Assembly: GCA_028281925.1 (NCBI GenBank)
Contig: JANQIX010000019.1
Coordinates: 62,001-126,000, forward strand
Length of the DNA stretch: 64,000 bases
Direction: 5' to 3'
Source of the DNA: Alphaproteobacteria bacterium
GTDB taxonomy: Bacteria > Pseudomonadota > Alphaproteobacteria > DSM-16000 > Inquilinaceae
The position numbers and the translations under genes were made by a program. The notes beneath the pieces were generated by a model that was not told the DNA's origin, made no database searches, and was given only the letters and a program-made list of their open reading frames with translations. Position 1 is the first letter of the stretch. The number at the start of each line of letters is the position of its first letter. Positions 220 through 3,353 of the stretch are shown here, piece by piece.

Positions 220-2907
220 ATGTCCCGAGGTCTGAAAGACCTTCTGCAACGGGTTCTTTACGTCGAAACGGCGTCCGAGCAGGCCGGCGGCCAGGGCACG
301 ACAAGCCGGATCGGCGAGCTCGACTTCTCGTTCCTCACCTTCGACGAACTGGTCAGTCAGCGGGCCGTGGACCCCAACACCACGTTCCAGGTGCTGTCGT
401 TGCGCAGCTTCAAAGAGGCTGTGGCCGAAGAGTGGGAGAAGTACGCTCGGACTGTCGGCCTTGCGGCGGAGAACACGATCTCCCGCCGGATTCGGAAGAA
501 CGACACATGCGTCCATGAATCCGACGACACGTTCCTGTTCCTGTTCGACGTTCCGGACGATTCCGTCGCCACGGAAAAGCTGCACGACATCACCGAAGCG
601 CTGATGAAGCGCCTGATCGGCGACCGGTTCGTCGGCGTCCATGCACAGCTTACCCAGGTCGACGCCGCTGAGATCATGGATGCGGTCGGCGAGCTCGACG
701 AAGCCGCCCTGGATCGGGCGGTGGAAGCCGCCACCGTCGTCATGCTGGACACGGCAGCTGACGGAAGCGCCCATCTCGTGCCGCTGGAGCCGCCGGAGGG
801 TGGCGACAAGGCAGCGCCGAAGCTGGTGACGGACGATCCGCTGGACCGGGCAAGCACCCTGGAGCGTGATGGAGACGGCGATCCCGATGAGGCCAAGTGG
901 ACGACGCAAGGCCGCGACAAACGGGAAGGCTGGACGGAAATCGACCCGGAGCGCCGGCACAAGCTGGTGAAGCTTGGCGCCAATGATCGCCCCGAGAGCC
1001 GCCAAGAGAAGTGGGAGACGCTGAAACGCGACGACGATGCGAGCTCCTTGGCCAGGCTGACGGCAAATGGCGGATCGAGTGACGCCGAACGCCACGCCGC
1101 AAAGACGGGAAAGCAGGGCGATCCCGTGTGGGACGAGATCGAACCGCTGACCGTGCCCACAGGCGCCATCGGTGTCGATGGCGCCGAGACGGACAACCCG
1201 CAGCGCGCGCAAGCTACCGTGGGCGATTGGGAAAGCGTGCCCAGCACCGCATCGTCGGTGCCGCAATTCGACCGCGGTGACGCCGACGCCGGGGGGGACG
1301 GGCAATCGGCGACCGATGAGAGGCCCCAGGCGGAGGACGCTCAGTGGACCGATGCTGCCAACGAATCCGGCACGACCCAGCAGTGGCACACCATTGACAG
1401 TAAGACATCCGAGGCGCGACTGACCCGGGATACGAAGGTTGCGGCGGAGGCGGAGCAATCGGCCCACTCCGCCGGCAAGCGTAAACCGGATGCCGAATGG
1501 GAACAACTGGAGACTGGGCCGGCCGGTGCCGACGGCGATCCTTGGCCGGGCGGCGACGGCAGCGTTGTGGAGATGGGGACAGGCTCGCCCACCAGCAGCA
1601 GCCGGGACGACGCGGCCACCGAGTGGGAGACACCGGATGTGCCTGCAGCGGCAAAGCCCGATCCGGTATGGCCGAGCACCACAACCAAGGAAACCGATAT
1701 CTCCGCCCGCGCCAACCGGACGGAGACGCGGTCGACAGCCGCCGGGCATTGGGGAGAGACACGCGACCGGCCGATCAGTGAGGCTGAATGGTCCCGATCC
1801 TCCACCGCCAAGCCGGACGAGGGTGCACGCTGGGGTGGCACGACCGGCGAACGGGCCGCCAGCGGCCACGACGTCGCCGCGGATCCGCTGCCGTCGAAGC
1901 CGGACAACGACTGGGGCGGCCCCACCCAGACGCGCCAGGAAAAGGGTGGGCTGATCGAAAGCGATCCGATCGCGCCACGGCCTGATTTCGACTGGCCCAT
2001 GATGATCGAAGTCGGAACGGTCGTCGGGCACGACCTGACCCACGATCACTATGACCCCGGTCCGCCCAAGGCCGCACCCTGGCAGCACCTGACCTGGCCG
2101 CCGCCGGACACGGCGAAGCGGCGCCGGCCGAAGCTGCCGGACGGCGCCGTCACGGCAGCTCTGCCATCGGGGCTTGTTGCCGGCTTCTGGCCCGTCTGGA
2201 ACAGCACCACGCGGCGCGTCGACACCTACCTGGCGGCCCCGATGGCGACGGGTGAGGACGGCTCCAATCCCCGCGTCATGCATCTGGGCCGCGCGTCGCC
2301 CGCCGCCGCCAAGGTCGCCGTCGATCTGGCCATGCTCTATGCCACGCTGGATCGAATTGAACGCAACATCGATGCCCGTCAGGGATGGCTGATGGTGGTG
2401 CCACTGGGCTTCACGACGCTGATGCCGCCCCATTTCGAAACGACGAAGCTGATCCTGGAGCATTTTCCCTCAGCCGCCCGCGGCCGGTATCTGCTTCTGG
2501 AAATCGGCGGCTGGCCGAAGACACCGCCGACCGCGGCACTCGGCGCGTTACGCAACGTGCTGCCCGGGCTGTGCCGCGATGTGCTGCTGCGGATTGACGG
2601 TAACGGGCCGCCACCACAGGCCATCGCCGATCTCAGGGCGTGTGGGCTTGGTCTCGATCTCGCCGATTTCGGCCGCCGTCGCTGCCCCACGCTGCCGCGA
2701 CCGGGACGAGGATTGCGCACCTATCTCTGGGGGTTGGACGACGCGGACGGTGTGGCACAGGCCGCCGACGGACACTGGCTTGTCAGCGGTGCGGGCCTGG
2801 GGCCGCCATTGGCCGTGCCGCAGCCCTGGAGCGGCCCTGAATGGCGGCCGATGACCGATACCGGCCGTGCGGCCGGACAGCGCAGCACCGCAGGCGCGGC
2901 CCAGTAG
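220..2907 (+). CDS. Degenerate GGDEF/EAL-like protein with Trp-repeat disordered linker
   Basis: 895 aa. Residues about 45-165 look like a GGDEF fold: an RKND...ESDDTFLFLF stretch sits where the R..GGDEF loop would be, so the active site is lost. Residues about 690-860 resemble an EAL domain (RYLLLEIGG, then LGLDLADFG, the usual DDFG region) but the EAL signature is absent. Residues 200-630 between them are acidic, low-complexity and probably disordered, with Trp at 227, 238, 265, 304, 337, 376, 389, 427, 442, 469, 484, 511, 524, 538, 565, 592, 621 and 626. Spacings cluster near 13, 27 and 39, and [KR]PDxxW recurs. No membrane segment or signal peptide is visible, so a cytosolic scaffold or receptor seems likelier than an enzyme. 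The ATG at 220 leads directly into an amphipathic N-terminus. Function unknown; the domain calls come from reading motifs only. Confidence 0.7.
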   Translation: MSRGLKDLLQRVLYVETASEQAGGQGTTSRIGELDFSFLTFDELVSQRAVDPNTTFQVLSLRSFKEAVAEEWEKYARTVGLAAENTISRRIRKNDTCVHESDDTFLFLFDVPDDSVATEKLHDITEALMKRLIGDRFVGVHAQLTQVDAAEIMDAVGELDEAALDRAVEAATVVMLDTAADGSAHLVPLEPPEGGDKAAPKLVTDDPLDRASTLERDGDGDPDEAKWTTQGRDKREGWTEIDPERRHKLVKLGANDRPESRQEKWETLKRDDDASSLARLTANGGSSDAERHAAKTGKQGDPVWDEIEPLTVPTGAIGVDGAETDNPQRAQATVGDWESVPSTASSVPQFDRGDADAGGDGQSATDERPQAEDAQWTDAANESGTTQQWHTIDSKTSEARLTRDTKVAAEAEQSAHSAGKRKPDAEWEQLETGPAGADGDPWPGGDGSVVEMGTGSPTSSSRDDAATEWETPDVPAAAKPDPVWPSTTTKETDISARANRTETRSTAAGHWGETRDRPISEAEWSRSSTAKPDEGARWGGTTGERAASGHDVAADPLPSKPDNDWGGPTQTRQEKGGLIESDPIAPRPDFDWPMMIEVGTVVGHDLTHDHYDPGPPKAAPWQHLTWPPPDTAKRRRPKLPDGAVTAALPSGLVAGFWPVWNSTTRRVDTYLAAPMATGEDGSNPRVMHLGRASPAAAKVAVDLAMLYATLDRIERNIDARQGWLMVVPLGFTTLMPPHFETTKLILEHFPSAARGRYLLLEIGGWPKTPPTAALGALRNVLPGLCRDVLLRIDGNGPPPQAIADLRACGLGLDLADFGRRRCPTLPRPGRGLRTYLWGLDDADGVAQAADGHWLVSGAGLGPPLAVPQPWSGPEWRPMTDTGRAAGQRSTAGAAQ

Positions 2908-2945
2908 ACGCCGATCGTGCTGTCCGTCCGGCATGGGGCGGGAGT

Positions 2946-3353
2946 ATGGTTGCGGCCATGCGGCGCATTACACCCCCGACGATCGACGACATGGCGGGCA
3001 TGGCGGAAGAGGCCATGGCCGATCTGCCTGAGGAACTGCTGGCCCCCATCGAAGGCGTGGCCATCCGGGTGGAGGAGTTCCCCGACGACGCCACGGTGGC
3101 GGAGATGGAACTGGACGGCCCCTTCGACCTTTTGGGGCTCTATGTCGGCACACCGTTCGGCGAGAAGAGCGTCGGTGTCAGCGCCACCCATGTCGACATC
3201 ATCTTCCTCTACCGCCAACCGATCCTGGCCTATTGGTGCGAGACCGGCGAAGACCTGCACCAGGTCGTCCGCCACGTCCTGATCCACGAGATCGGCCACC
3301 ATTACGGCTTCAGCGACGAGGATATGGAGCGGCTGGAGGCGATGGCGCCTTAA
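2946..3353 (+). CDS. Zincin-like metallopeptidase family protein (PF06262 type)
   Basis: About 135 aa with the zinc-protease motif HEIGHHYGFSDED near the C-terminus (H-E-x-x-H plus a downstream acidic residue). Before it comes the family-typical run of PFDLLGLYxG, IFLYRxPIL and WCETGEDL. This small, probably cytosolic family is common in alphaproteobacteria and actinobacteria; its substrate is unknown to me. I used the ATG at 2946, but the ATG at 2958 (MRRITPPT) fits the usual family N-terminus equally well; a GGAG lies just upstream of both. An open frame upstream of 2946 runs into the previous gene and is not needed. A large inverted repeat follows the stop. Confidence 0.82.
   Translation: MVAAMRRITPPTIDDMAGMAEEAMADLPEELLAPIEGVAIRVEEFPDDATVAEMELDGPFDLLGLYVGTPFGEKSVGVSATHVDIIFLYRQPILAYWCETGEDLHQVVRHVLIHEIGHHYGFSDEDMERLEAMAP

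Follow-up and report, generated by a model that had tools for sequence, protein, structure and literature searches.

The 895-residue protein encoded near the start of the window, the whole stretch of 64,000 nucleotides that was analysed (C13:62001-126000 in a 6.33 Mb draft genome), is best read as a FimX-like, non-enzymatic GGDEF-EAL adaptor. The linker between its two degenerate domains appears to be a multivalent array of a tryptophan motif, which would have arisen by copy-number expansion and is predicted to serve as a docking or clustering scaffold. We give this reading a probability of about 0.5. The features concerned are the following, numbered by window position.

220-2907 (+): whole gene, 895 amino acids (P0001; G000), with a degenerate GGDEF-like domain, a predicted disordered Trp-motif linker and a degenerate EAL-like domain
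340-789 (+): degenerate GGDEF-like domain, residues 41-190 (hhalign, AF2, Foldseek)
493-504 (+): R92-K-N-D95, at the place of the I-site RxxD in canonical GGDEF domains (alignment columns)
520-534 (+): S-D-D-T-F at the position of the GGDEF signature, which is lost (alignment columns)
790-2073 (+): acidic, predicted disordered linker, residues 191-618, net charge -38, 16 Trp (AF2 pLDDT, composition)
898-1995 (+): Trp motif array, W227 to W592, with the consensus K/R(-5) D(-3) D(-1) W Q/E(+1) [ILVM](+3) (positions, pooled enrichment)
1399-1464 (+): weakly predicted helix in mid-linker, residues 394-415 (AF2 DSSP, pLDDT 47-65)
2074-2106 (+): boundary motif A-P-W621-Q-H-L624-T-W626-P-P-P (alignment)
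2170-2850 (+): degenerate EAL-like domain, residues 651-877 (hhalign, AF2, Foldseek)
2851-2904 (+): C-terminal tail, residues 878-895 (low AF2 confidence)

The gene and its end domains

The open reading frame is a real gene, coding and under selection, as is clear from its comparison with the orthologue in the sister MAG G001. The two proteins align at 87% identity along their length with zero indels inside the linker, and dN/dS values (Nei-Gojobori) are 0.03 for the N domain, 0.27 for the linker and 0.06 for the C domain. Upstream of the long gene, thrC, an M16 peptidase and a GNAT acetyltransferase (names by reading the sequences) are found in G000, the genome studied here, as well as in G001 and G004 (L029 3726-7026), whereas the neighbours retrieved around the long gene of G007 differ from this set. 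The open reading frame that comes next (window 2841-3353, +) codes for a zincin-like metallopeptidase (PF06262, E 6e-34); if it begins at its first start codon, it overlaps the last part of the present gene. A search for a plasmid match returned none, and 16S rRNA likewise gave no match in the assembly. We note that G001 (L038 / L030) is publicly titled Anaerolineae, yet it groups with alphaproteobacterial-type relatives, and the title is probably a naming error.

The protein itself has no match in Pfam, even at E 10, and likewise none in NCBIfam. Within the family alignment, PF00990 (GGDEF) matches 4 of the 32 members and PF00563 (EAL) matches 8 of 32. When the family was compared by hhalign with canonical GGDEF and EAL domains from its own genome, the probabilities were 94.7% (E 6e-8) and 96.9% (E 1e-10), respectively. 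AF2 models both domains with a pLDDT of ~90. In Foldseek searches the N domain retrieved Cya2, SadC and DosC at the top (best E 1.3e-3, probability 1.00), all GGDEF/class III cyclase folds. This match (E ~1e-3) is weaker than that of the EAL-like domain, for which the full model found the FimX EAL structure 7lkq as its best hit (E 2e-9), together with YkuI and TBD1265. These results support the initial annotation, which had placed GGDEF and EAL domains at the two ends of the protein.

That annotation had also described both domains as having lost their catalytic signatures, and the alignments bear this out. When the N domain was checked for the features of an active diguanylate cyclase, neither the GG[DE]EF signature nor the metal-binding Asp was found: SDDTF occupies the signature position and, upstream of it, the DxD metal motif position reads S-L-R. 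The C domain was checked in the same way for the residues that mark an EAL phosphodiesterase as active (EAL Glu, Asn, DD, Lys, AEGVE Glu, QG). Only E761, the first Glu of E[ILV]TE, and a single Asp of DDFG survive, and the residues that contact c-di-GMP in EAL domains are mostly lost as well. Taken together, homology, predicted fold and residue loss show both end domains to be catalytically dead domains that are predicted to fold. Since most of the EAL contacts are gone and the GGDEF-like domain keeps only an RxxD remnant, binding of c-di-GMP by this protein seems doubtful. The remnant (R92-D95) is kept in 4 of 4 long-linker orthologues and is absent from their short cousins; a c-di-GMP site and mere ancestry are both possible explanations.

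The tryptophan motif and the origin of the array

The segment between the domains fits its earlier description as acidic, disordered and Trp-rich. In addition to its strong negative charge, it holds 16 Trp among 428 residues versus 3 Phe and Tyr combined, and AF2 pLDDT is ~30-35 across most of residues 209-616, low pLDDT being our proxy for disorder. AF2 predicts no folded domain within the linker, one of the outcomes that would have spoken against the initial annotation. A recount of the translated reading frame returned the 18 Trps from W227 to W626 exactly as first listed, with gaps of 11, 27, 39, 33, 39, 13, 38, 15, 27, 15, 27, 13, 14, 27, 27, 29 and 5 residues.

All of the reported [KR]PDxxW copies (W427, W484, W565 and W592) are likewise present, along with KPDEGARW at W538. 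As a motif, however, [KR]PDxxW gives only a partial view, being the N-terminal half of a longer K/R-x-D-x-D-W-Q/E-x-[ILVM]. This consensus emerged from the positions around Trp pooled over G000, G004 and G007, where [ILVM] at +3 was observed 23 times versus 6.3 expected (z 7.2) and Q at +1 10 times versus 1.6 (z 6.8), followed by D at -1 (z 4.0), K/R at -5 (z 3.4) and D at -3 (z 2.9); these z-scores are upper bounds, since the calculation counts each copy as independent, the positions and residue groups were picked by scanning, and G000 is related by descent to G004. Counting against our reading, 9 of the 16 copies in G000, more than half, are without the hydrophobic residue at +3.

Between G000 and G001 all 16 linker Trps are preserved, with the rest of the linker 75% identical (by chance 0.76^16, ~0.01), while the residues flanking them are conserved no better than the remainder (46/64 vs 263/348). 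On this timescale, then, the sequences indicate that the Trp itself is clearly constrained.

The linker ends at the boundary motif, a single copy of WxxLxWPP just before the EAL-like domain, in which W, L, W, P and P are invariant in 9 of 9 aligned members of the order, short and long forms alike. Comparison of the two sequences shows that the linker Trp motif resembles this single boundary motif. Multiple copies were also seen elsewhere. G569, which belongs to another family, has four, with WNAF, WQPM and WQPL in the linker and WTPL at the boundary in a second reading frame; the gene (L136 578-2379) is split across two overlapping frames, by a frameshift or an assembly error. G121 has two (KDWKTI and KEWQEV, 27 residues apart). 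Across the class, the lone linker Trps of other relatives, counted by eye, displayed no obvious general enrichment of WxxΦ.

The short cousins from the same order are 492-515 residues long and have linkers of ~33-36 residues with no Trp array. Among 77 proteins of the class that have both domains, linkers mostly span 10-130 residues with 0-3 Trps, and more than five linker Trps occur only in the long orthologues of this order. There are four such orthologues (G000, G001, G004 and G007), representing only three independent lineages. In the tree they form one clade (support 1.0) nested within the short forms, and because of this nesting the single-copy short form looks ancestral and the array derived. 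Furthermore, two degenerate GGDEF-like genes stand side by side in G225 (L042 466-3726; convergent) and in G023 (L017), pairs which suggest that the family has been duplicated repeatedly.

From the likeness of the motifs, the topology of the family tree and the retention of the Trps, we propose that an existing docking motif was multiplied, which would have produced a lineage-specific disordered linker of ~430 residues with ~16 copies of D-W-Q/E-x-[ILVM]; the Trps would then have been held by selection as the spacers drifted. Each Trp motif would dock weakly into pockets of a single kind, which would lie either on an EAL- or GGDEF-like domain of another molecule of the same protein or on a partner. 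The former may hold because the single copy always adjoins the EAL-like domain. Many copies together would make a multivalent scaffold, able to cluster itself or its clients and perhaps regulated by c-di-GMP via the domains. A bolder form of this proposal has the ~16-fold motif build a multivalent condensate or polymer scaffold, the single copy of the short forms bind the adjacent EAL-like domain, and the dead domain act as receptor for its own linker motif; we consider it possible, with the odds against it.

Spacing of the tryptophans and alternative readings

The initial annotation had noted that the gaps between Trps lie near multiples of ~13 residues. The spacing itself is confirmed: the best period in G000 is 13.6 residues (P 0.0007-0.002 against random placement, periods 4-45 scanned), and a gap-based test covering periods 9-22 yields P = 0.00025, although all of these P values are optimistic since the protein was selected because of the pattern. 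The gaps of G001 are identical, but that protein is too similar to G000 to be an independent case. After a period search the lattice is not significant in G004 (P 0.66) or G007 (P 0.11); at a preset period of 13.5 residues it gives P 0.10 and P 0.017, respectively. More generally, the Trps are spread more evenly than random in the three lineages (P 0.0004, 0.0001 and 0.035), but the evenness weakens under minimum-gap nulls, to P 0.004-0.05 for G000 and G004, while in G007 it is no longer significant. We treat the ~13.5-residue lattice, as read from these sequences, as a feature of this genus.

Might the linker be an eroded tandem array, with a unit of ~13 (or 27) residues and a spacing that is itself functional? 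Apart from the period in G000 and G001, this idea gains from the recurrence of gaps of 27, 13-14 and 39-40 residues in G004 and G007, and from seven gaps of G000 and G004 that, counted from the boundary pair at the C-terminal end, match each other more closely than shuffled ones do (permutation P 0.004, with the anchoring selected after inspection of the data). Trp-masked alignment of the same two proteins matches only three Trp columns (P 0.02); unmasked column matching was left out as circular. Against it stand the lattice results in G004 and G007 and the searches for a repeat as such, and the gap lists, compared without an anchor, show no significant agreement. With Trps masked, autocorrelation in G000 finds no clear repeat (best lag 27, z 1.9), and the weak lags of the others, 38-40 in G004 (z 3.0) and 13 in G007 (z 2.5), are mutually discordant; no relevant tandem or dispersed repeat was found at the DNA level. 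A repeat unit extending beyond one residue was thus rejected on the Trp-masked autocorrelation in this protein and the DNA searches. The 'eroded ~13-residue repeat' of the initial annotation is therefore an observation about spacing rather than evidence of a repeat unit, G004 and G007 having kept Trps and WxxΦ but not a significant lattice, and a functional tandem array is improbable.

The remaining alternatives concern what the Trps do. They could be nonspecific aromatic stickers on a sticker-and-spacer chain that condenses by homotypic clustering without a defined pocket. A chain with repeated stickers and predicted disorder is indeed what we find: the linker is acidic, rich in Trp and poor in Phe and Tyr, its Trps are dispersed in all three lineages, and, by analogy, it is Trp stickers that bring about both homotypic and client phase separation in the disordered protein PYCO1 (PMC10288592). 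The specific flanking consensus, with Q/E at +1 and [ILVM] at +3, and the invariant single copy in the short cousins, however, favour a docking motif of defined sequence over aromatic residues as such. We regard generic stickers as possible, on the unfavourable side. Alternatively, the linker could act passively as a flexible tether, its Trps being chance leftovers of expansion and drift. Its fast divergence (76% identity between G000 and G001 versus 96-98% in the domains), together with its dN/dS relative to theirs, is what such a tether would display, but the preservation of 16/16 Trps and the enrichment of one motif in three lineages with linkers that can hardly be aligned make this unlikely. 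We also considered host-directed mimicry of the eukaryotic Atg8/LC3-interacting motif, which we take the D/E-W-x-x-[ILV] shape of the linker motifs to resemble. Beyond this shape, the sample name of the sister MAG G001, IP29b, matches a coral-skeleton metagenome study (PMC9868349). The motif nevertheless adjoins a c-di-GMP-type signalling domain in all members of the order, short forms included, and mimicry appears very improbable indeed.

Comparison with known systems

FimX of Xanthomonas and Pseudomonas is a REC-PAS-GGDEF-EAL protein that acts as a c-di-GMP receptor of the type IV pilus. Among solved structures, it provides the best sequence match of the family profile (E 5e-11, spanning both domains), and its EAL fold is nearest to that of the EAL-like domain; the domains are catalytically dead in both proteins. 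The present protein differs in that REC and PAS are absent and it opens directly with the GGDEF-like domain, in its long Trp-motif linker between the domains, and in the loss of most EAL contacts to c-di-GMP. LapD, a membrane receptor with HAMP and periplasmic domains, is another degenerate GGDEF-EAL tandem that serves as a c-di-GMP receptor; its profile and fold matches are weaker than those of FimX, and neither HAMP nor a periplasmic domain was seen in our protein.

FimX is found at cell poles as a degenerate GGDEF-EAL c-di-GMP receptor (PMC8389850). Since it is the closest solved relative, the earlier guess of a scaffold that senses c-di-GMP or organises a pole is plausible by analogy. A link to the pole is no more than a possibility: PopZ (DUF2497) is present in the same genome, and among 14 control genomes its model matched only Caulobacter, which, together with the relatives, makes the genome probably alphaproteobacterial. 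PilB (TIGR02538) gave no match above the cut-off in the genome, so a FimX-type tie to type IV pili gains no support, although this is a weak test as the model passed in 0 of the 14 controls.

With respect to the linker, the nearest likeness is to PYCO1 and EPYC1, algal linker proteins that condense Rubisco, the former with repeated short Trp-containing stickers and the latter with stickers that are evenly spaced (PMC10288592). The likeness would be one of mechanism only, with no homology, a different motif and no Rubisco link. Within the order, the short GGDEF-EAL-like cousins have the same two domains and the WxxLxWPP boundary motif and differ in having no Trp array and no RxxD. Degenerate GGDEF-EAL proteins are c-di-GMP effectors in which the connection between the domains is usually short. 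The present protein is a variant of that known kind, set apart by the multiplication of the motif: within one clade, it goes from a single copy beside a domain to ~16 in the linker, and these genomes still carry short relatives as well. Should the motif prove to be a docking site, the clade would offer a natural series in which to follow how a bacterial binding motif, as its copies increase, becomes a multivalent scaffold.
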